From positions 1 to 45,532 of the IMG/VR virus record IMGVR_UViG_3300030098_001102: DNA of 45,532 nt. One strand, 5' to 3'. How positions within the stretch are numbered: the first letter of the stretch is position 1; each line of letters starts with the position of its first letter. The DNA comes from a virus. Both the position numbers and the translations under genes were made by a program. This document shows positions 2,400 through 42,456 of the stretch, piece after piece. The notes below the pieces were generated by a model. The model was not told the origin of the DNA and made no database searches. It worked only from the letters and a program-made list of their open reading frames with translations.

Positions 2400-2744
2400 A
2401 TGGAAAATAAAGTTAATTACAGGTTTAATGAAGGGAATTTAATCCAGGAGCTTAAGGATTATATTGACTCCACTTACAGTGGACATTATTCCAAAAACAA
2501 ATTTCAATCCACAGAATTTATATCAGACTGCGGTCACGGCATAGGTTTTTCTATTGGCAACATACTTAAGTATGCACAACGATATGGTCGCAAAGGTCAT
2601 CAAGCAGATCACCGCAAAGATCTTATGAAAGTTTTGCATTATGCAATTATTGCACTAAGCGAACATGATAGAACCACAGAAGAAGATCTATGGACCATCG
2701 AACAGGTTGAGGCCGACGCAGAAAATAAACCCATAGAATTTTGA
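2400..2744 (+). CDS. DUF3310-family protein (T7 gp1.7-like)
   Basis: A 114-aa protein with ATG after AAGGAGAAGTT. The stretch at about residues 46-85 (GFSIGNILKYAQRYGRKG followed by DLMKVLHYAIIAL) is the characteristic DUF3310 pattern, in which a conserved Gly-Asn and Lys-Tyr lead into a helical segment. The family includes T7 gp1.7, described as a nucleotide (dTMP) kinase-like protein affecting nucleotide pools and drug sensitivity. This suggests a nucleotide-metabolism role during replication. No P-loop is visible. Its TGA stop (2742-2744) overlaps the TTG start of the next gene at 2741, so the two are probably translationally coupled. Confidence 0.7.
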   Translation: MENKVNYRFNEGNLIQELKDYIDSTYSGHYSKNKFQSTEFISDCGHGIGFSIGNILKYAQRYGRKGHQADHRKDLMKVLHYAIIALSEHDRTTEEDLWTIEQVEADAENKPIEF

Positions 2745-3457
2745 CCGACATTCATTACAACGTTTTTTCTTTGCCAGCGGCCCTTATGGTCGAACACGAT
2801 ATGTCAGACAAAATGGTTGATGATCTGAACAATCACTTGGACAAATTAAGAGAAGATAAAAACAAAAAATCTGCTGGCGATAAATTGATTGGCCAGATAC
2901 ATCAAGGCGAACAATTAATAATTGACTTTACTAAACCAGAAGTTCTTGAGTTTAGACAAGTGGTAGAAAATTTAGGCGTTAGTTACATTAGACATTTTGT
3001 TGAGTTTACCAAATCCCAAATACATCCCAAAAAAATAGAAATGGATCAGCTTTGGTCGGTGCATAGCTACGAGGGTGACTACAATCCGATTCACGATCAC
3101 TTAACCAAATCACCCATGGGTATATCTTTTACTTGTTGGACCAAAGTGCCAGATCAAATAACCAAACCTGGAGAAGAAGAAAAATTACATTATGATTTAT
3201 ATAATAGCTCTGGTGCCATTGATGGTTTTATTAATTTTACTTATGGTTTAAACCAAACCTCAGATCCAGAACGTTTGCGGCCATCGCAATCCAGATACAT
3301 CAAACCCGAGGTTGGCAAGCTACTTATGTTTCCGTCCTGGATGCAACATTGTGTCTATCCTTTTTTTGGCCCAGGAGAAAGACGTACCGTGGCTGGCAAT
3401 CTTAATTGTTTTAACCTAACACCCGAAGAAATACAGGAGGCTCAAAGTGGAGTTTGA
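2741..3457 (+). CDS. 2OG-Fe(II) oxygenase
   Basis: A 238-aa protein of the 2-oxoglutarate/Fe(II)-dependent dioxygenase fold. The double-stranded beta-helix core starts near residue 100 with VHSYEGDYNPIHDH, giving His118 (and His120) as metal ligands. The distal His203 is in FPSWMQHCVYPF and the 2OG-binding Arg is 214/215 in GPGERRTV. The first ligand set reads HDH instead of the usual HxD/E, so Asp119 or His120 must replace the acidic ligand. The frame starts at TTG 2741, overlapping the previous stop. There is no visible Shine-Dalgarno, and an internal ATG at 2786 is an alternative. The substrate is unknown; proteins of this type can modify phage or host proteins or nucleobases. It overlaps the downstream nuclease gene by 11 nt. 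Confidence 0.8.
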   Translation: MTDIHYNVFSLPAALMVEHDMSDKMVDDLNNHLDKLREDKNKKSAGDKLIGQIHQGEQLIIDFTKPEVLEFRQVVENLGVSYIRHFVEFTKSQIHPKKIEMDQLWSVHSYEGDYNPIHDHLTKSPMGISFTCWTKVPDQITKPGEEEKLHYDLYNSSGAIDGFINFTYGLNQTSDPERLRPSQSRYIKPEVGKLLMFPSWMQHCVYPFFGPGERRTVAGNLNCFNLTPEEIQEAQSGV

Positions 3458-4264: not shown

Positions 4265-4588
4265 CTAAGAGTTAGACTCTTCTGGGACCTTTCTAAAATA
4301 CTGCATCCCAGAAGTTTCAGCATTTAGCTTTTCACCATTGTGAATAACTTTAATGCCTTCTTTCTGTGCATCTAACATGCAATCAGCACAAATGACCAGC
4401 TCACCTTTTTCGGCGTGGCCCTCGATGTGGTGCACACATAACCAGGTATCGATAGGTATGCTACGATGGGTTTTGTATTTACCCACCTGTTGCTCACCTA
4501 ACTGTTGACAGCAATCGCAGTAATCTAAAATCCTCTCCAGAGTGCTAAAGGTTACTTTTGCCATCTCACCTTTTGTTGGTTTTTCCAT
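4265..4588 (-). CDS. Small Cys/His-rich, probably zinc-binding protein
   Basis: A 107-aa protein whose ATG follows ATGGAGAAAAATTT (GGAG about 8 nt upstream). Cys and His are grouped as YCDCCQQL (about 23-29), then WLCVHHIEGHAE (about 49-60) and VICADCMLDA (about 65-74). Together they could hold one or two zinc ions. It is a monocistronic unit with its own consensus-like promoter (4648-4676) and strong terminator (4219-4244), which is unusual in this densely overlapping genome and suggests separately timed, strong expression. The family is not recognised. A nucleic-acid-binding or host-modifying role is possible but not shown. Confidence 0.7.
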   Translation of the reverse strand: MEKPTKGEMAKVTFSTLERILDYCDCCQQLGEQQVGKYKTHRSIPIDTWLCVHHIEGHAEKGELVICADCMLDAQKEGIKVIHNGEKLNAETSGMQYFRKVPEESNS

Positions 4589-4647
4589 AAATTTTTCTCC
4601 ATGAAAATGGGCGATTTCATATTCTTATAAAACCTCGACCCAAACCC

Positions 4648-4676
4648 ATTATAACATAATGTATACATTTATGCAA
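4648..4676 (-). promoter_or_regulatory. Sigma70-type promoter for the zinc-binding-protein gene
   Basis: On the minus strand TTGCAT (4671-4676) and TATAAT (4648-4653) are separated by exactly 17 nt. The spacer includes ATGTATACAT with the same GTATAC core (4661-4666) as the elements at 1549-1554 and 5467-5472, so a common regulator could act here. The expected transcript start near 4641 gives a leader of about 50 nt before the ATG at 4588. Confidence 0.75.
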
Positions 4677-4696
4677 ATTTGTATATTTATGAAATT

Positions 4697-5410
4697 TTAG
4701 AAAAGGTCTTGATATAGGTTGAAAATGCGGTCTTTGTTGCACAACCAAAAGACTAATAAATATCTATCACCAGATCCTACTGGCAAACCTTTGTGTAACT
4801 GTGTAAAGCTAGGAAAGATTAAAGCATGGCCCGTTGGCAAAGGTTTGATGGCCCCATGATTATGAAACTCGGTCCCGCCGCCTTCATAATCTCCTGTGTT
4901 AAGCGGAACCACCACACTTATATCTGCGCTTTCGTCGTGGTGCCAGGCTCCCTGCTTTTTATCTTTTAGGTTGTAGTTAGCAATCTGTATACTTGCTGGA
5001 TCTCCACAGCTCCTCTGCCAGATTGCCATAAAGATTGGGTTTAATACTGTCTGGGCCACAAACCACATGTTCCGATAAAGCTCTGGACATTGTTGTTTCA
5101 ATACAATCTCTGGGATCTGCCGCAAAGTATCTTCATCCTTGTTGCCCTCAAACCCTATCTCTTTTCGCATGCTATCAATTTCTTTGACCAGGAGCTTACA
5201 AAACTGCCTGCGAAATAATGGAATCTTATAAACGTCTGGATATATTTTCTTGGCCATACCATGGATTGGTGTCTTTGCCATTTTCTCTGTTCCAGCGTCG
5301 GCATGGTACTTGGCCACTATGGGTATTGTTTCTTGGACCGCATCATAAGTCGCCTGGTTTATCATCCAGTGAGATTGCATGCTAAGAAGGTAGTTTTTTA
5401 GTTGATACAT
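4697..5410 (-). CDS. 2OG-Fe(II) oxygenase (prolyl 4-hydroxylase-like)
   Basis: A 237-aa protein. The catalytic half has the HxD motif at AWHHDESADIS (His157, Asp159), the distal His206 in FTQLHKGLP and the 2OG-binding Arg216 in SGDRYLLVFWL. GGGTEFHNHG (178-187) fits the turn between core strands. This complete set supports an active Fe(II)/2-oxoglutarate dioxygenase. Residues 1-130 are helical and of unknown function. No Shine-Dalgarno precedes the ATG at 5410, and a -10-like TATGAT lies only about 13 nt upstream on the minus strand, so the leader may be very short. The gene is divergent from the ribbon-helix-helix regulator gene. Confidence 0.8.
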   Translation of the reverse strand: MYQLKNYLLSMQSHWMINQATYDAVQETIPIVAKYHADAGTEKMAKTPIHGMAKKIYPDVYKIPLFRRQFCKLLVKEIDSMRKEIGFEGNKDEDTLRQIPEIVLKQQCPELYRNMWFVAQTVLNPIFMAIWQRSCGDPASIQIANYNLKDKKQGAWHHDESADISVVVPLNTGDYEGGGTEFHNHGAIKPLPTGHALIFPSFTQLHKGLPVGSGDRYLLVFWLCNKDRIFNLYQDLF

Positions 5411-34151: not shown

Positions 34152-36401
34152 TTATCTCCAAATATTTGGTTGGTCCTCAATCATTTGGCCCAAACCTTTT
34201 AAATTGTCATTTACCAGGCCAAAAAAAGCCTCGGTATTGTCATCTAGTTTAGCAGAAGTATAAATATTTGCACTAATATACCAATCTGTGTTGTCTACCA
34301 TGCTTGTTTGTTGATAAGTATTAAAACCAGGAACATATCCTATTAAAGCGACTAATGTAGTTTCATCACCATATTCTCCAGTTTCTTGTTGCTCTTGCTC
34401 TATTTCTTCTTGTTGCGCCTCAATGTTAGCCGCAATAATTTTTTCTGCTATTTGATCTGCCTCTGAGGATGTCATAACACCAGAAGATGCAGTATCAATT
34501 TGTCCTTGCACGTTAGAAACTTGCACGTCTGCAATAGCCACTGAGGCTTGATTGTCAAAAGTCGGTAATGGTGTAATAGAAATGTTTGCACCACCAGATC
34601 CGCTTAAATTATCTGACATCGATAATACCTGGTTTGTTTGCTGTGTTGAGCTAGCAAATTGATCCGATACACTAGGACTATTACTTGTACTTATACCTCC
34701 ACCAGAGCTAGCAACGCTACCAGTATTAATATTCGATGTTGATGAATTAGCTGTAGTATTATTTTGCGATGCCCCAGAGGCTTGAGAATAGCTGTTAGCG
34801 GCCGTTTGCACGCCTGCTTTGACAACGTTTAAGGCAACGGTCATCAACCTGTTTTTGCCGCTTGGGTTTTCTCTTTCAACCACTTCAAATTCTTCTGCCA
34901 CTTCTTCAACAATTTCGTCTCTAATTTCTTCTTCTCTTTCAGCTATTCTTTCTTCCTCCATCATTTCTTGCATTTCTTCTATTTCTTCAAAAACCTCTTC
35001 TACTGCCTCTTCCTCAAAAATTTCTTCAATAAACTCTTCCTCTGGTTCATCCAGGTCTGCTAATCTTTCTTCATGTCTTTCTTCGTGGTGCTCATTCGTT
35101 TCTTCTTCAAACCATTCTTCTAAATCTTCTACAGTATTAAATGAAATAAAAGTATTAGGCTCGGTGTAATCCTCTACCAAAAAAGTTTCTTGAAAAACAA
35201 ATTCATCCAAAAGTAATTCATCTTGGTTATGAAAAGGCTCATCGTGTCTTGGGCCAAACTCATCTATAAATGGTAAAGGTTCTGGATCGAAAAAAATTAC
35301 TAATTCTTCTGTTATTGGGCCGTCAAAAAACTCAATTGGATTTTCAGAAAAATCATCGAAAGGTATGAACATTTCTTCTTCAAATACTTCCACAATAAAA
35401 AACTGATCTTGAAAATCATTTTCATGGTTTTCGTTACCAAATATTCCAGTAGCAAATTGTTCTTGCTCATCTACAAAACCATAATCAACATTACTGTCAT
35501 TAAAAAATGCTACCGATTGTTCTTGTCTGTACCCAGCACAAAAGGGTGCGTACTGAGGGTCATCTGCACATTGTTGGTCATCGTATGCGTCCCAATAGTT
35601 AGGACACGATTCACTATAAAGCTGTGTTATATTGCATTGTTGAGTAAGTAAAGCATCTGCGTAGCCACTACAGCTAGAATCATTTAAAGGATTACTGCAA
35701 TCAACTCCATTACCAGAACCCTCGCCGAACAAAGAGCCGCCGTTTTCTAGGGTTGTATTTATTGTTGTATTGTTCCAATTAGTGTTTACGCAAGTAGATG
35801 AGTTTGTTGTTCCAGTATTACATTCATCATGGTAATAATAAGTATACGAATTATTTTTATTGGCACCAACTTCACCAATAAGCACATCATGGTTGATAAT
35901 TTCTAATTCTCTGTAGCGAATATCAAAAGAATTGTTATTCCAAAGTATTACCTCAAAACTATTATCTGTGTTGCTACGATTAAATTCTCTTAACCTGTAC
36001 CAACCAAATATCATTTTTTCTGAGTCTCCGTATGATTTCATACGAGAATTGTTGTCTCTTATTAAGTCAGTCCAGAAAGGATATATTGTGTAGGTATGCT
36101 GTCCGTTAATAGGATCTGGAGTGTAATCAGAGCAATAGCTACCACTAGAACCAAAATGTAAACATCCGTTCGTGGCCATTCGTGCCTTTGAAAATGTAGA
36201 GCCGTAAAAAGTAAAATTAAAAGAAAGGTCAATTGCAGGAGATATGGCATCATCGGAAACCTCGTAAGCTAACTCGCCATTAAAGTTATTAGCATTATCA
36301 TGCAAATCGTATAATGCTTGATTGCTTTCGTATATGTATTGACCATATACATTAAATGATAGCAGACTAACTATTGCGTAGCATAAAACTCTTGTTTGCA
36401 T
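34152..36401 (-). CDS. Secreted nidogen-like, Cys-repeat, Glu-rich surface protein
   Basis: A 749-aa protein with a signal peptide (residues 1-20, cleavage likely after YG). Residues about 60-185 resemble a NIDO (nidogen-like) domain: TNGCLHFGSSG, YTIYPFWTDLI, SFEVILWNNNSFDIRYRELE and GEVGANKNN. Three tandem 22-residue Cys units (235-291, pattern Cys-x8/9-Cys-x2-Tyr) follow, then an acidic region (about 310-512) rich in Phe/Glu/Asp and finally Glu coiled coil. A Ser/Asn-rich stretch and a C-terminal domain with ALIGYVPGFNTYQQTSMVDN complete it. It overlaps the end of the 374-aa gene by 31 nt. Export to the host envelope during late infection is inferred. An adhesion or exclusion role is possible. 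Confidence 0.65.
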   Translation of the reverse strand: MQTRVLCYAIVSLLSFNVYGQYIYESNQALYDLHDNANNFNGELAYEVSDDAISPAIDLSFNFTFYGSTFSKARMATNGCLHFGSSGSYCSDYTPDPINGQHTYTIYPFWTDLIRDNNSRMKSYGDSEKMIFGWYRLREFNRSNTDNSFEVILWNNNSFDIRYRELEIINHDVLIGEVGANKNNSYTYYYHDECNTGTTNSSTCVNTNWNNTTINTTLENGGSLFGEGSGNGVDCSNPLNDSSCSGYADALLTQQCNITQLYSESCPNYWDAYDDQQCADDPQYAPFCAGYRQEQSVAFFNDSNVDYGFVDEQEQFATGIFGNENHENDFQDQFFIVEVFEEEMFIPFDDFSENPIEFFDGPITEELVIFFDPEPLPFIDEFGPRHDEPFHNQDELLLDEFVFQETFLVEDYTEPNTFISFNTVEDLEEWFEEETNEHHEERHEERLADLDEPEEEFIEEIFEEEAVEEVFEEIEEMQEMMEEERIAEREEEIRDEIVEEVAEEFEVVERENPSGKNRLMTVALNVVKAGVQTAANSYSQASGASQNNTTANSSTSNINTGSVASSGGGISTSNSPSVSDQFASSTQQTNQVLSMSDNLSGSGGANISITPLPTFDNQASVAIADVQVSNVQGQIDTASSGVMTSSEADQIAEKIIAANIEAQQEEIEQEQQETGEYGDETTLVALIGYVPGFNTYQQTSMVDNTDWYISANIYTSAKLDDNTEAFFGLVNDNLKGLGQMIEDQPNIWR

Positions 36402-37495
36402 TGTTTATCCGATTTAGTTTTTCTTGTGTAAGTTTTTTTAACAAATCCAACAACGTCTTTGTTAATACGGGATCTTTTTGGGTTTACTTCTTTTGTGCAT
36501 TGTTTTATAAACTCTTTTTCTTTGTCTTTTGCATCTGGCCTTTTAGATTGATTTTTGGCCCACATGGTAGATGCCTCTTTACCTATTTTTCCTTGATATG
36601 GACAAGGAGTGCCTGCCATTTCCATGGCTTTAAATACTCTTTCGTCCTGGCAAAGTAAGGCCACACTGGCCACTTTCATTCCCATGTCATACAAATATTT
36701 AGAAAGTTTTAATCTTTCACAATTTTGATCCACAATTGTTTTGCCTCCAGATAAACCAAAAACCTGGCCCTGGAAAGCGCCACTTACTCCTGTGGTACAT
36801 AAGTCCTGGCTGTAGCTCATTATACTTGGAGCTATGGCAGACGCAGGCGGGGCCTCGCTTTTTACATTTTGGTTAATCGTTTGCACAGATTTTGACTCGT
36901 TAATATTTCTATTGGTGTTATCAGACTTGGTGTTGTTGTTGTTTTGATTAACATTATTAGTCGTAACGTTTGATTCAGAGGTTGATTGATTGATGTTTGT
37001 GTTCTGATTCGTGTTATTACTGGTGCTATTATTTGTGTTGTTAACATTCTGATTTACTGTCGAATTTACCGTAGAGGTAGAGGTCGAAGTGTTAATATTA
37101 TTATTAGTGTTGTTCGAGGTAGATGTCGCCGTTGAGGTGTTAACGTTAATATTATTGTTGTTGCTGGTGTTAACGTTTGTATTCGAGTTCGTGGCCGTCG
37201 TGGTCGTATTATTAGTGTTTACGTTGGTGTTTGAGTTGGTATTATTCGCGGTCGAGGTCGAGGTGTTGGTGTTAACGTTAGTGTTCGAGTTGGTATTTGT
37301 CGTGGTCGTGGTATTTACTGTATCTAAAGAATTATTTTCGCAATACTGCGTGCCATTTACACAAGCTGTACCAGATTGTTGTGAAGATTGTGCGTTTGCT
37401 GTTATAGAAAAACCAATTACGGCCGTAATCAAAAACATTACAGCCGACCATTTTACTAACTGGTCGTGTTCAATTTGATCCTGTCTTTTTTTCAT
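36371..37495 (-). CDS. Membrane-anchored or secreted Asn/Thr-repeat protein
   Basis: A 374-aa protein. An N-terminal hydrophobic helix (WSAVMFLITAVIGFSITANA, about 16-35) is a signal or anchor. A short Cys pair follows (ACVNGTQYC), then about 150 residues made almost only of Asn, Thr, Ser and Val (61-210). The C-terminal domain (about 217-374) has Cys at SYSQDLCTTGVSG, VDQNCERLK, LLCQDERVF and GTPCPYQG and a basic tail. The cysteine-bearing domain looks conserved and folded. It lies directly upstream of and overlaps the nidogen-like gene, suggesting a joint surface function. The name of the family is not known to me. Confidence 0.65.
   Translation of the reverse strand: MKKRQDQIEHDQLVKWSAVMFLITAVIGFSITANAQSSQQSGTACVNGTQYCENNSLDTVNTTTTTNTNSNTNVNTNTSTSTANNTNSNTNVNTNNTTTTATNSNTNVNTSNNNNINVNTSTATSTSNNTNNNINTSTSTSTVNSTVNQNVNNTNNSTSNNTNQNTNINQSTSESNVTTNNVNQNNNNTKSDNTNRNINESKSVQTINQNVKSEAPPASAIAPSIMSYSQDLCTTGVSGAFQGQVFGLSGGKTIVDQNCERLKLSKYLYDMGMKVASVALLCQDERVFKAMEMAGTPCPYQGKIGKEASTMWAKNQSKRPDAKDKEKEFIKQCTKEVNPKRSRINKDVVGFVKKTYTRKTKSDKQCKQEFYATQ
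36866..37315 (-). repeat. Low-complexity Asn/Thr coding repeats
   Basis: Residues 61-210 of the 374-aa protein. The element NSNTNVNT occurs at residues 69-76, 87-94 and 103-110. Codons are mixed AAT/AAC and ACT/ACC/ACG, so the protein pattern is kept despite synonymous variation, which argues for selection rather than simple slippage. Confidence 0.7.
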
Positions 37496-37910
37496 CGGGT
37501 ATGTAAACTCCTAATTCAATTAACTTTTCTCGGTTAATTAAATGTTCTGCCTCTACATCATCTTTGCTTTGACCGTAATATTTAACTGCTAAATATTTTT
37601 CGATCATAGCGACATTGATGTTGATGTCATCTACCACTACCTCACCTAAAACTCTACCATATTTTCCCTTGGAATCTTTTAATTTTGAACGCAAAACTAT
37701 GTTTTTTCCGTTATCTATAGATTCTTTAAGAAACTTTGCGGCTAATTTGCCTCTAATTTTTTCATCTTTATCTCTGGTTCTACTTTCGGGAGTATCGATC
37801 CCGTAGAGTCTAACTCTGCATTTATGTAAGACAGAAAAACCAAGATCTAGTATGCAATCAATCGTATCGCCATCGACCACGCGAGTTACCTGGCAACTAT
37901 ACTCGTACAT
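37470..37910 (-). CDS. Thermonuclease (staphylococcal nuclease-like)
   Basis: A 146-aa SNase-fold enzyme. CQVTRVVDGDTIDC supplies the calcium-binding Asp (Asp13/Asp15), CRVRLYGIDTPESR gives Arg34 and Glu42, and KYGRVLGEV gives the second catalytic Arg86. Thus all three catalytic residues of SNase (Arg35, Glu43, Arg87 by S. aureus numbering) are present. No signal peptide is visible, so it probably acts in the cytoplasm, for example degrading host DNA late in infection. It overlaps the next gene by 26 nt. Confidence 0.88.
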   Translation of the reverse strand: MYEYSCQVTRVVDGDTIDCILDLGFSVLHKCRVRLYGIDTPESRTRDKDEKIRGKLAAKFLKESIDNGKNIVLRSKLKDSKGKYGRVLGEVVVDDININVAMIEKYLAVKYYGQSKDDVEAEHLINREKLIELGVYIPDEKKTGSN

Positions 37911-38816: not shown

Positions 38817-39434
38817 TTATCCTTTGTAATACGATGGTAAACCAATCATAGGTCTGCGGTCAAACCGATTTGCCTCTGCATTTTTACCATCAGCATCATT
38901 ATAATGTAAAAAAACCTGTCCACAGTCCTTGCCTGCAAAAGCATCACGCCAATGCTCCAGGTCACAACCTCTATACATCAACATATCTCCTTGTTTTAAA
39001 TTAACCTTAACCCCTTTTTTGCCTTCTTTTCCAGATGGCTCTATGTATATGGGCCACTCATCACCGCCTAAGTGCATTGTGGTAGATATTTCACAAGAGT
39101 ATCTGTCTTTGTGTCTTTTTAAAACATCACCTTTTTTATAGATTCTTGCATAAGAATAAGTTTCAATAAGGTTTACTTTCGATTCTTTTTCCATAATTGG
39201 TTTTACTTTTTGCAATAAAGTTTCCATTACTATATCTGCATAATGCGAATAAGTTTCTGGTATTTGTTGATCGTTCCAAACCCCAAAATATTCAGTGAAT
39301 TGAGATATGTATTTAGCGTCAAATAAATATCTTGCGACTGCTCGTTTATTTAAAAAGTATTGATAGCAAAAGTCTGCTAACTCTGTTGATATAGCACCTT
39401 TAATAACTTGGTATTTGTTTTTTTTAAAACTCAT
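38817..39434 (-). CDS. 2OG-Fe(II) oxygenase (phage prolyl-hydroxylase-like)
   Basis: A 205-aa protein. YARIYKKGDVLKRHKDRYSC supplies His108 and Asp110, and GCDLEHWRDAF gives His161 as the third ligand. The usual Arg or Lys ten residues further on is replaced by the QVFLHYND segment, so 2OG may be held differently, as in a phage-specific subgroup I recall. Its ATG overlaps the stop of the 32-aa peptide gene (ATGA). The partner oxygenase lies one gene upstream. The substrate may be a virion fibre or host protein. Confidence 0.8.
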   Translation of the reverse strand: MSFKKNKYQVIKGAISTELADFCYQYFLNKRAVARYLFDAKYISQFTEYFGVWNDQQIPETYSHYADIVMETLLQKVKPIMEKESKVNLIETYSYARIYKKGDVLKRHKDRYSCEISTTMHLGGDEWPIYIEPSGKEGKKGVKVNLKQGDMLMYRGCDLEHWRDAFAGKDCGQVFLHYNDADGKNAEANRFDRRPMIGLPSYYKG

Positions 39435-39529
39435 TGTAAGTTTCCTGGTCCTGGTGGCTCACTAAACCATGACATAACTAATCCGCATGATGATATTGCA
39501 CAAAATAAATTAATTAAAAAATCAATCAT
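39431..39529 (-). CDS. 32-aa membrane peptide between two oxygenase genes
   Basis: Read from ATG 39529: MIDFLINLFCAISSCGLVMS is a hydrophobic segment with two Cys, followed by a Trp, Pro and Gly-rich tail ending in GPGNLQ. Its ATG overlaps the upstream oxygenase stop (ATGA) and its TGA overlaps the ATG of the downstream oxygenase (ATGA), so all three are probably coupled. Small size limits certainty, but the double four-base overlap leaves no gap to explain otherwise. Confidence 0.55.
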   Translation of the reverse strand: MIDFLINLFCAISSCGLVMSWFSEPPGPGNLQ

Positions 39530-40152
39530 CTAAATGGGTATCCTAAATTCCAACACACTAAGGAGTGTCGTATTCCTTTTGTTACAGGTTTAACTCTATG
39601 CCAAACAAAAGAAGGAAAGATAATAACACTACCTTTTTTTCTAATTTCTTCACATATTCTAGGTTGTGAGCCTTCATCTGTGTTTCTAAAATCAAACTCT
39701 AAATCACCACCTTCGTATTCTTTAGGATCGGTGAGTGATACAGTCATGCTAAGTTTTCTTAACTTACCATGTGTATTTTCATTTTCGGGATTATTGTAAG
39801 GTTCTTCGTATGAGTCGCAATGCCAATCATAAAACTGACCTTTTTTATATTCAGTAAATTGACAAGACTCTGACCAATCCCACTCAAAATTCCAACCTGC
39901 ATTTGCGTTTGCTTGATGTATGTAAGGTTGTATTTCTTTGTATATCCACCTTTCTGACATCCATACAATATCAGATTTGCGTTTTTTTTGGATGTTTTTG
40001 AGTTCTAGTTTGGTAAGTTTTTTGTCACTATTTCCAGCATTACCCGTAAGAGCCATTTCTTTGTTTTGCTCTTTGCCATAACGAACTATGTCATCACAAA
40101 TTCTTTTGGGAATAGCCGATTGAAAAAACCAATAATAATATTTTAAATTCAC
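39526..40152 (-). CDS. 2OG-Fe(II) oxygenase (PKHD-type hydroxylase)
   Basis: A 208-aa protein. FYDWHCDSYEEPY gives His111 and Asp113, SFVWHRVKPV gives His185, and GIRHSLVCWNLG gives Arg195 for 2-oxoglutarate. The complete HxD...H...R set and length match PKHD-type hydroxylases found in bacteria and cyanophages. It lies 30 nt below the Gly-rich adhesin-like genes and is coupled to the 32-aa peptide gene, so it is made with the fibre proteins. That suggests, but does not prove, that it hydroxylates them. Confidence 0.88.
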   Translation of the reverse strand: MNLKYYYWFFQSAIPKRICDDIVRYGKEQNKEMALTGNAGNSDKKLTKLELKNIQKKRKSDIVWMSERWIYKEIQPYIHQANANAGWNFEWDWSESCQFTEYKKGQFYDWHCDSYEEPYNNPENENTHGKLRKLSMTVSLTDPKEYEGGDLEFDFRNTDEGSQPRICEEIRKKGSVIIFPSFVWHRVKPVTKGIRHSLVCWNLGYPFR

Positions 40153-40182
40153 AAGTCACTACACATTTGAATTATTATTTAT

Positions 40183-41088
40183 TTATACCCAATCATCGGC
40201 TTTTATTTGTCTATATACAGTTCTTAAATCCCACATACTTGATGCTGTTTTAAAATCAACCTCTGGCTCACTAATAACGACTATACCCGAGCCACCTGCT
40301 CCGCCTTTTTCAGAAGTACCTGGTGATGCAAAAACACCTCCACCTCCGCCACCTGTATTAGCTGTTCCTGCATTTCCGCTTTGTGGTAGTGGGTTGCTTG
40401 CACCATCTCCGCCACCTCCTGCACCACCGGGTCCGGGATTAAATCCACCACCGCCTCCGCCACCTGCATAGGTTACGCTTGAACCTGTAATTGAACTTGC
40501 TGTACCTGCTCCACCTGCACCACCAGTATTTGGAGCAGGACTACCTGCTGCTCCAGCAGCATTAGCTCCGCCACCACCAGCAGAACCAGCATTTGGACTG
40601 GCTACATTGCCAGCAACAGTTCCTCCGTCATTACCCTGTGATGGACTTACAGGAGGTGTATTTCCAGAACCACCGCTTAAATCAGCAAAGTTTGCTCCAC
40701 CACCACCAGAACCACCATCTCCAGCATTAACAGCATTGTAAGCTCCTAAACCACCGCCAGCAGATGTAATTCCAACAGCAGAAGATGCTACTCCATTGGC
40801 AGAATTTCCTGCACTGGTTGCTCCTCCTGCCCCAATAACTATTGGATAAGGTGATCCACCTGTTACTGGTGCTGGTCCTGTTCTAAAGCCACCTGCTCCT
40901 CCGCCACCGCCATTTTCAAAAGCACCTGCATCTGTGCTACCACCACCGCCACCACCGCCAACTACTAAATAAGTAACTGTACTTGTATGTGTTGCGGTAG
41001 TTAAAGTTCCGCTTGAATTAAAAGTGGTTATAACTGCATCTTGAGTTCCTGAAGTTACTGCTTGTGTTGCTCCGATTAATCTAGGCAT
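40183..41088 (-). CDS. Gly-rich adhesin-like tail protein A
   Basis: A 301-aa protein. A conserved beta start (VITTFNSSGTLTTATHTSTV, then TYLVVGGGGGGG) leads into about 200 residues of Gly-rich stretches such as NGGGGGAGGF, GAGGATSAG and AGGGGGGGFNPG, alternating with Pro/Ser/Asn loops. This suggests packed polyglycine-II helices like those of receptor-binding adhesin gp38 of phage S16. A distinct C-terminal end, ASSMWDLRTVYRQIKADDWV, is shared with its neighbour. The segment GNTPPVSPSQGN is identical in both. It overlaps the neighbouring gene by 8 nt. Receptor binding is inferred. Confidence 0.7.
   Translation of the reverse strand: MPRLIGATQAVTSGTQDAVITTFNSSGTLTTATHTSTVTYLVVGGGGGGGSTDAGAFENGGGGGAGGFRTGPAPVTGGSPYPIVIGAGGATSAGNSANGVASSAVGITSAGGGLGAYNAVNAGDGGSGGGGANFADLSGGSGNTPPVSPSQGNDGGTVAGNVASPNAGSAGGGGANAAGAAGSPAPNTGGAGGAGTASSITGSSVTYAGGGGGGGFNPGPGGAGGGGDGASNPLPQSGNAGTANTGGGGGGVFASPGTSEKGGAGGSGIVVISEPEVDFKTASSMWDLRTVYRQIKADDWV
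40631..40665 (-). repeat. Near-identical 35-bp patch in adhesin gene A
   Basis: Matches 41538-41572 at 34 of 35 positions and encodes GNTPPVSPSQGN, while flanking sequence of the two genes is clearly more diverged. Confidence 0.8.
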
Positions 41089-42016
41089 TTGTCCATGTTC
41101 CTGCTTTTACGTTTTCATAAACCGCGTTCATATTCCACATGCCAGATGCTAAAGTAGGTCCTGCGTCCTCTTTAATAATAACGACACCAGAGCCACCAGC
41201 TTTGCCAGGATTACTATTACCAGCACCGCCTCCGCCTCCGCCAGTATTGGCAGATCCCGTTCCTGCGGCACCACCATCACCACCACCTTTTCCGCCACCA
41301 CCAGGGCCACCATCACCCTCAGTCTGACTAACATCACCTCCGCCACCACCGCCACCTGCTCTTGTTACAGATGAGCCTGTGATTGAAGAGGCCGCACCAG
41401 CACCACCATCACCACCATCAAAAAAATCGCCACTTGGTACTGTTTGTTGATTTGGTTGACCTACAGCACCAGCTCCACCGCCGCCGCCACCGCCACCAAG
41501 GGCGTTTGCTCCACCGCCGCCTCTGTTACCACCAGTATTACCTTGTGATGGACTTACAGGAGGTGTATTTCCTGCGGCTCCACCTGCTCCATTTGCAGTA
41601 TTACTTCTACCACCAACACCTCCACCCGAACCACCAGCTTTAGCAGAATCACTATTGAATCCACCTCCGCCTCCGCCTCCAGCAGAAGTTATAGAAGAAA
41701 AAACTGAATTTGAACCATTACTTCCTTCTCCTTCTCCTCCAGGACCATCCTCAGCAGAACCACCTGCTCCTACAGTAATTGGATAGCTTGTAGAGGCATC
41801 AACAGGAAAACCAGTTGCAGTTCTATATCCACCTGCTCCTCCGCCACCGCCAACTGTACCACCACCGCCTGCACCACCTGCAATGACTAAGTATTCAACT
41901 GAGGTTGTATAAGAGGCAGTAGTTAAAGTACCGCTTGAATTAAAAGTTGTTGTAACTGCTGGTTGTGCAACTGTTGGGTTATCTACGCCTATTATTCCAC
42001 CATTAAGGTCGGCCAT
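41081..42016 (-). CDS. Gly-rich adhesin-like tail protein B
   Basis: A 311-aa paralogue of the downstream protein. The same plan is visible: VTTTFNSSGTLTTASYTTSV and EYLVIAGGAGGGG at the start, Gly-rich blocks (GGGGGAGGYRTATG, GGGGGGGFNSD, GGGGGGGDVSQTEGDGGPGG), the GNTPPVSPSQGN loop and the end ASGMWNMNAVYENVKAGTW. The Gly blocks differ in length and surrounding loops differ in sequence, as expected if specificity loops vary. Two tandem copies may give two receptor-binding options or a hetero-complex. The protein start follows the fibre-associated gene at 42019. Confidence 0.7.
   Translation of the reverse strand: MADLNGGIIGVDNPTVAQPAVTTTFNSSGTLTTASYTTSVEYLVIAGGAGGGGTVGGGGGAGGYRTATGFPVDASTSYPITVGAGGSAEDGPGGEGEGSNGSNSVFSSITSAGGGGGGGFNSDSAKAGGSGGGVGGRSNTANGAGGAAGNTPPVSPSQGNTGGNRGGGGANALGGGGGGGGAGAVGQPNQQTVPSGDFFDGGDGGAGAASSITGSSVTRAGGGGGGGDVSQTEGDGGPGGGGKGGGDGGAAGTGSANTGGGGGGAGNSNPGKAGGSGVVIIKEDAGPTLASGMWNMNAVYENVKAGTWTNA
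41538..41572 (-). repeat. Near-identical 35-bp patch in adhesin gene B
   Basis: Partner of 40631-40665 (34 of 35 identical). It could serve as a homology patch for recombination between the two adhesin genes. Confidence 0.8.
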
Positions 42017-42018
42017 GT

Positions 42019-42456
42019 TTAGACCTCATTCCATTCAGTATTAGTAGCATCCCATTCGTAATTGGTTAAGTTTACTTTACCTAACCATTTTTGATTATCT
42101 TCATCCCAAAATATTAAGACAGTATTAGAGCTAATTTCAGTTACAGTAGGATAAGTTACAGGTGCTTTCCAATCATCATTGCTATCTAATGACCAAGATG
42201 CGTAAGGTTTTGGTGATATAAATTTATTTTTAGAAGAATCGTAAGTATAGCCAATACCTGCGTATTGTTTTCTAAAATTATTGTTATAAGAGGTTTGTTT
42301 CCAAGCTGTTCCGCCTGTTGAGTGTGGAACGATAGATGCTACAAATGTTTCTGCATCTGCGTGTTGATCGCCACCATTGGCATCTACATCATCATTAGAT
42401 ACTACTATTACTCGTAATACTTCGTTGCTTGAATTAAGTTCTGCAAAATGAGCCAT
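42019..42456 (-). CDS. Tail-fibre-associated protein (MAHFAEL type)
   Basis: A 145-aa protein. MAHFAELNSSNEVLRVIVVS, then WKQTSYNNNFRKQYAGIGYT and KPYASWSLDSNDDWKAPVTY, ending FWDEDNQKWLGK: this is a familiar small-protein plan near tail-fibre genes of marine myo- and podoviruses. Its Trp/Tyr-rich beta strands suggest an assembly or tip-associated role. ATG follows AAGGAG. It sits between the fibre-type genes and the adhesins. Confidence 0.65.
   Translation of the reverse strand: MAHFAELNSSNEVLRVIVVSNDDVDANGGDQHADAETFVASIVPHSTGGTAWKQTSYNNNFRKQYAGIGYTYDSSKNKFISPKPYASWSLDSNDDWKAPVTYPTVTEISSNTVLIFWDEDNQKWLGKVNLTNYEWDATNTEWNEV

Follow-up and report, generated by a model that had tools for sequence, protein, structure and literature searches.

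The marine phage genome record IMGVR_UViG_3300030098_001102 (45,532 bp, studied whole and hereafter the window) encodes two neighboring oxygenase-like enzymes, here called A and B, directly downstream of two glycine-rich (Gly-rich) fibre genes. We put the chance that A and B constitute a coupled cassette of tailoring enzymes acting on the Gly-rich adhesin at about one in two. Oxygenases dependent on 2-oxoglutarate (2OG) rank with the commonest "auxiliary" genes in marine phages, and the roles assigned to them so far are DNA repair, nitrogen sensing, iron uptake, and heme; a fibre-modifying cassette would give these widespread enzymes a single testable role. In the mechanism we propose, A and B would be made as one translationally coupled unit from genes lying directly after the Gly-rich fibres in the late region and, as 2OG/Fe(II)-dependent oxygenases, would hydroxylate residues of the Gly-rich fibre before virion assembly. 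The A/B junction and the position above A are slots that in relatives contain other tailoring enzymes, namely further 2OG oxygenases, 3′-phosphoadenosine 5′-phosphosulfate (PAPS)-type sulfotransferases, and a flavin halogenase; the 32-amino-acid membrane peptide encoded between A and B is one optional occupant. With different enzymes in the slots, adhesin decoration would vary from one related phage to the next. We favor this reading on the basis of gene order, translational coupling, protein-hydroxylase-like folds, the rapid evolution of the neighboring gene, and the exchange of chemistries between relatives.

The late genes of the window, including those for terminase, portal, capsid, and structural proteins, lie on the minus strand, where the genes considered here follow the order Gly-rich, Gly-rich, A, 32-codon open reading frame (ORF), B (Table 1). 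From this position alone, the cassette is presumably expressed late. A preliminary description, made from the letters of the sequence, had placed oxygenase genes at 39526 and 38817 on either side of a 32-codon gene with ATGA overlaps at both ends, in a block that follows tandem Gly-rich genes, each containing GNTPPVSPSQGN; the ORFs confirmed this layout. The exact ATGA is shared twice, once by the TGA of A and the ATG of the micro-ORF and once by the TGA of the micro-ORF and the ATG of B. A gap of 30 bp separates the end of the second Gly-rich gene, at 40183, from the start of A, and the two Gly-rich genes overlap each other at 41081–41088. A contig that is 99.6% identical over 5,166 bp (L135) has the same gene arrangement, which confirms the reading of the micro-ORF. 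A nucleotide search of the region against phage genomes returned only a 59-bp match, and relatives were hence sought by protein searches. With the Gly-rich protein as query, the search of phages gave no match, probably an effect of low-complexity filtering.

By profile and predicted fold, enzyme A is a 2OG-Fe(II) oxygenase of the prolyl 4-hydroxylase (P4H)/PKHD type. It matches PF13640 (E 1.2e-15; 58.7 bits against a curated Pfam cut-off of 27) and PHROG 61 (4.7e-38). Compared with solved structures, the profile of A came closest, at about 1e-6, to the PKHD-type hydroxylases Sbal_3634 (8.3e-7) and PiuC (1.8e-6), although these matches cover only the catalytic half of A, which moreover sits in a phage context; the P4H of virus PBCV-1 was matched weakly (0.015). 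The fold predicted for A (predicted local distance difference test, pLDDT, 74.6) is closest to the PBCV-1 collagen prolyl hydroxylase vCPH (PDB 5c5t, 2.6e-9), Pseudomonas P4H, PiuC, and PHD2. Residues H111, D113, H185, and R195, which correspond to an HxD...H triad and a basic residue near H+10, are invariant in 28 sequences. Neither A nor B matched AlkB or TET/JBP in Pfam at E ≤ 1.

Enzyme B is assigned to PHROG 2954, which carries the label ferrochelatase. We found no credible Pfam match for B and no match to ferrochelatase PF00762 at E ≤ 1. In contrast, the AlphaFold2 model of B (pLDDT 76.7; predicted template modeling score 0.77) gave 737 PDB matches at E ≤ 0.001, of which the best 50 are all oxygenases, led by the proline hydroxylase H11 (2.0e-9), P4H, PHD2, PHYHD1, and EctD. 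The triad H108, D110, and H161 does not vary across 15 divergent members, among them cyanophage "ferrochelatases" at 29–37% identity, and R97 and R163, possible 2OG-binding basic residues, are likewise invariant. We conclude that the ferrochelatase label is wrong, because B has the predicted oxygenase fold and the invariant HxD...H triad, and that B is a 2OG-oxygenase-fold protein whose cosubstrate binding is putative. The preliminary description had called B an oxygenase from the letters alone, and this assignment is now supported by structure prediction and residue conservation even though Pfam is silent. The mislabeled family spans PHROG 2954/3531 (for example, window 38817–39434, Syn9 gp54, and S-PM2 p237). 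An annotation of "Hyp. with ferrochetalase domain" (GC 615) appears among cyanophages (PMC3037559), and two studies take B as a true ferrochelatase paired with a 2OG oxygenase (PMC9599517, PMC11561400); the corrected PHROG 2954 label undercuts their iron/heme reading. The "DNA endonuclease V" labels of PHROG 274/2297 also look wrong, because Syn9 gp51 and gp53, which carry them (L179:3324–3842 and 4447–5031), have weak 2OG-oxygenase matches (0.0019 and 0.0003), whereas the profile search found no endonuclease match for either.

To place the cassette among its relatives, we scanned with A, B, the Gly-rich protein, the sulfotransferase, the halogenase, and the third oxygenase; the loci obtained share ancestry, many of the contigs are short, and genes were called as simple ORFs. 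Co-occurrence of the oxygenases with Gly-rich fibre genes, a check set in advance, was very strong: a Gly-rich ORF (at least 20% glycine) lies just above the enzyme run, meaning no more than 1.3 kb from its first recognized enzyme gene, in 152 of the 155 loci with upstream sequence, a set that includes some loci chosen by their Gly-rich gene and overlapping loci of one contig. In deduplicated loci selected by A or B, a Gly-rich gene was present within one non-enzyme gene in 100%, versus 74% at shuffled positions, and the shuffle test was positive for sulfotransferase loci too. Single-linkage clustering of the flanking genes merged nearly all loci, and hence we give no count of independent events. 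Enzyme–enzyme junctions overlap in 218 of 252 close pairs (136 by an exact ATGA) versus 284 of 853 junctions elsewhere, while none of the 114 junctions from a Gly-rich gene to an enzyme gene does. Thus, the enzymes are coupled to one another in a single unit that follows the fibre gene.

The content of this unit is mosaic. Typical orders are Gly-Gly-A-B, Gly-A-Ox182-B, Gly-A-PF13759-B, and Gly-Gly-ST-A-B, where ST is a sulfotransferase; others are Gly-MAHFA-ST-(2OG)n-A-PF13759-B and Gly-MAHFA-Gly-A-Hal-PF13759-B, where Hal is a halogenase. Sulfotransferases (PF13469/PF00685) lie between the Gly-rich gene and the oxygenases in nearly all of the 39 loci scanned, and a Trp halogenase (PF04820, 6e-31) is part of the cassette in some. 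Genes flanked by cassette members and left unlabeled by our panel fell into 45 protein groups, matching (at E ≤ 0.05, with overlap) PF13640 in 19, PF13759 in 15, JmjC_2 in 4, and the Asp/Asn hydroxylase PF05118 in 1; PHROG 274 and 2297 were matched by 17 and 6 of these 45 proteins. This mosaic slot content suggests that marine phages may chemically decorate their host-recognition proteins. Individual examples of sulfotransferases coupled upstream of A are L106:1179–1925, L107:1385–2173, and L062:4065–4835, and flavin tryptophan-halogenase-like genes occur in pelagiphage-type cassettes of L086 (in the A/B slot), L220, L231, and L274–L276.

Because the peptide is too short for a collection scan, relatives of the 32-codon ORF were located by reading the gaps between A and B. 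About eight further distinct contigs show an A-ATGA-peptide arrangement, with in-frame, hydrophobic products of 28, 29, 32, or 35 codons, and because frame and hydrophobicity are kept, the micro-ORF is more than a chance frame. It is nevertheless rare: among 102 distinct loci with both A and B, the two genes are joined directly in 56, a hydrophobic ORF of 28–32 codons occupies the slot alone in 4 and together with a third oxygenase in 3, and the remainder have a third enzyme or other spacing. The peptide is thus present in only 7 of the 102, and L149 and L158 are additional carriers outside this count. It had been proposed as a localizer or partner of the enzymes, with conservation of its gene among relatives as a check; since most relatives, close ones included, join A to B directly or have another oxygenase between them, it is not a required partner. 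We conclude that the 32-codon ORF is a real small gene and an optional, minority insert. Conservation of the peptide is low: between the window and L019 it is 69% identical (A 91%, B 86%), and of the codons that differ, 10 are nonsynonymous and 2 synonymous. We considered its PPGPG tail as bait for hydroxylation and rejected the idea, because this end of the gene overlaps the probable ribosome-binding region of B and the tail is absent in several variants.

Both Gly-rich proteins match PF21722 (Gly_rich_2; 74.2 and 59.2 bits, cut-off 24.3) and, from their position and fast divergence, are putative virion adhesins. In relatives, identity is 54% for the Gly-rich protein, 89% for A, and 83% for B; the Gly-rich protein diverges fastest, as expected of a host-recognition protein. 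The preliminary description had likened these proteins to collagen and pointed to Pro or Asn in their loops as the target, and here the analogy found no support: Pro-Gly occurs at 0.83 times and Gly-Pro at 0.46 times expectation, no (Gxx)4 run is present in the window Gly-rich protein, and contigs with no recognized oxygenase gene nearby (L163, L176) also have Gly-rich fibres with the GNTPPxSPSQGN loop. Pro/Asn in GNTPPVSPSQGN is accordingly a weak candidate, because the loop is common to the domain and the proteins show no Pro-Gly enrichment. As candidate target residues, Lys, Asp, Asn, Thr, and Ser stand on an equal footing. Gly-rich proteins of about 300 residues (window 40183–41088 and relatives) share a conserved tail, WDLRxVxRQxKAxDW, whereas the HTVC033P-type proteins of 580–630 residues do not have this tail, yet also precede A. 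Gly-rich proteins from loci with a sulfotransferase contain more Tyr (2.6% versus 2.0%, p = 0.013) and Lys (1.9% versus 1.2%, p = 3e-5) than those from loci without one, but these values carry no correction for descent or multiple tests, and we set the difference aside.

Several characterized systems resemble the cassette in part. Like A, PBCV-1 vCPH is a virus-encoded oxygenase of P4H fold, and 4-hydroxyproline has been reported in PBCV-1 viral proteins (Eriksson 1999, as cited in PMC9301287); however, the two enzymes share only 17–19% identity, PBCV-1 infects algae, and collagen-like substrates are rich in Pro-Gly, unlike the Gly-rich proteins of the window. Bacterial oxygenases with protein substrates are also known (PMC4295552), namely the JmjC_2 enzymes YcfD/ROX and the Pseudomonas P4H that acts on EF-Tu; the P4H–EF-Tu structure 4iw3 is among the fold matches of A, and JmjC_2 enzymes occur in some cassettes, but the known targets are cellular translation proteins rather than virion proteins. 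Among cultured phages, the pelagiphages HTVC033P (gp58–61) and HTVC023P (gp65–67) have A and B homologues in the same order below fibre-region genes. They differ from the window in having a third 2OG oxygenase between A and B and no 32-amino-acid peptide; their pairing was noted in PMC9599517, and the pairs have been published as iron/heme auxiliary genes. In HTVC008M, the cassette is on the opposite strand, next to neck genes. Homologues of A and B also lie near tail-fibre genes in the Kyanoviridae phages Mosig, S-SM2, S-SM1, and S-RSM4. Syn9, Syn10, and S-RIM44 present, in order, fibre and fibre-assembly genes, two tryptophan-halogenase-type genes, many 2OG-oxygenase genes, and then a B homologue, although in Syn10 the fibres and one of the two halogenases have annotations that are hypothetical or based on similarity alone. 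These clusters share with the window the fibres followed by oxygenases and B, but they have a T4-like myovirus background, other fibre types, and halogenases, which the window does not have. Relatives of B in cellular assemblies come from two Pelagibacter/Pelagibacteraceae contigs (80% and 67% identity), a Rickettsiales metagenome-assembled genome, and a Maricaulis metagenome-assembled genome. These relatives, together with the pelagiphage homologues, suggest a SAR11 host for the window phage.

Several observations weigh against a fibre-modifying cassette. In Syn30 and P-SSM7, the B relative is flanked by genes for a DNA methyltransferase and a clamp loader, and in S-PM2 and S-RIM32 it lies near a helicase, downstream of a tail chaperone. 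Two further oxygenase candidates of the window (2741–3457 and 4697–5410) are outside the fibre module, and some Gly-rich fibres exist without oxygenases. The adjacency itself may reflect shared descent, since the loci are not independent samples. Halogenase loci are not nearer to a Gly-rich gene than shuffled positions (0.41 versus 0.63, not significant), a distance inflated by intervening unlabeled oxygenases. Finally, B has no Arg or Lys at H+10, where Cys171 is found, and for this reason its binding of 2OG stays putative.

The enzymes might instead modify the host surface or a small molecule, such as lipopolysaccharide or a secreted metabolite, for superinfection exclusion or host competitiveness, and lie near fibres only because both belong to a common hypervariable late region. 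Halogenases, sulfotransferases, and 2OG oxygenases are indeed common in natural-product pathways; for a comparable cyanophage cluster, a jumbo-phage review suggests a part in capsule decoration or secondary metabolism (PMC7824862); and VirX1, a characterized viral halogenase from Syn10, acts in vitro on many small aromatic compounds (PMC8407142). We nonetheless consider this rather unlikely. The classified cassette genes included none for scaffold formation (synthetase, polyketide, or glycan synthesis), the fold neighbors of A include enzymes that act on prolyl residues of proteins and peptides, the JmjC_2 and Asp/Asn hydroxylases of the cassettes belong to families with known protein substrates, and the enzyme run starts below a fibre gene in nearly all loci. 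That the substrate is another virion or late protein, such as the MAHFA protein or other tail proteins, rather than the Gly-rich adhesin, would account for the recurrence of a MAHFA-type protein beside the cassette and for the position of the T4-like cyanophage cassette between fibres and neck genes; the Gly-rich gene is, however, the more constant neighbor of A and B, and we regard this alternative as improbable.

An action on nucleic acid, in repair or base modification, is less probable again. A Syn9 2OG oxygenase has been reviewed as an AlkB-like repair enzyme (PMC2984593), and the methyltransferase beside B in Syn30 and P-SSM7 would fit such a role, but Pfam places A in PF13640 and gives no AlkB or TET/JBP hit at E ≤ 1, the best fold matches of A and B are prolyl hydroxylases and PhyH-type enzymes, and the genes of the window sit in a fibre module. 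We likewise give very little credence, marginally less than to a nucleic-acid role, to auxiliary iron, heme, or 2OG metabolism, with B as a ferrochelatase and A as a PiuC-like iron-uptake enzyme. Besides the PHROG 2954 label and the two studies that follow it, this view draws on PiuC being among the solved sequences closest to A, on a report that favors PiuC (PMC13184970), and on the tie between 2OG genes and nitrogen status (PMC3037559). The 205-residue B, however, is an oxygenase by fold and triad, a hydroxylase label carries no information on iron uptake, and the sulfotransferases of the mosaic do not fit.

The fibre-modifying cassette agrees with the one earlier hint that we found from marine phages: Fe(II) oxygenases are among the genes of marine-phage metaviromic islands tabulated under host recognition, with no mechanism given (PMC3909814). 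Apart from that tag and a comment in general terms about P4H and viral collagen tail fibres (PMC9301287), the open-licence full-text literature contained no earlier proposal of cassettes that modify fibres. We infer that the fibre is the substrate and that its modification would matter for adsorption. We more tentatively postulate, as a possibility we hold to be doubtful, that interchangeable coupled cassettes hydroxylate, sulfate, and halogenate the phages' own receptor-binding fibres, shifting host recognition by chemistry and not only by sequence. Were this so, VirX1, for which PMC8407142 lists no biosynthetic context, and phage halogenases like it would have a tail-fibre protein as their native substrate.

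Table 1. Genes of the Gly-rich fibre and oxygenase region of the window.
Feature	Position	Strand	Properties
MAHFA-type protein, recurring beside Gly-rich genes	42019..42456	-	145 aa; PHROG 7759
First Gly-rich fibre/adhesin-like protein	41081..42016	-	311 aa; PF21722 E 7.6e-16
Second Gly-rich fibre/adhesin-like protein, proposed substrate	40183..41088	-	301 aa; PF21722 E 2.1e-20
Enzyme A, predicted 2OG-Fe(II) oxygenase	39526..40152	-	208 aa; GTG start; PF13640, PHROG 61
Single-span membrane micro-ORF, optional, in the A/B slot	39431..39529	-	32 aa; ATGA overlap at each end
Enzyme B	38817..39434	-	205 aa; PHROG 2954, "ferrochelatase" by label; 2OG-oxygenase fold by predicted structure

Elsewhere in the window, the oxygenase candidate at 2741–3457 (plus strand; PF13759, 5.7e-12) lies in the plus-strand region next to a PDDEXK protein, and that at 4697–5410 (minus strand), at the end of the late region, is OGFOD2-like at 4.9e-5, which is below the cut-off. 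Two minus-strand genes with no Pfam match encode a 374-residue protein with a hydrophobic N-terminus and a long Asn/Thr-rich stretch (NTNSNTNVNTNT...; 36371–37495) and a 749-residue protein with a signal-like N-terminus and a very Glu-rich middle (34152–36401). A staphylococcal-nuclease-like protein (PF00565, 2.7e-14) is encoded in the late region at 37470–37910 (minus strand), and the C-terminal part of a serine-recombinase-like protein, with weak PF00239/PF07508 matches, lies at the contig end (45083–45529, minus strand).

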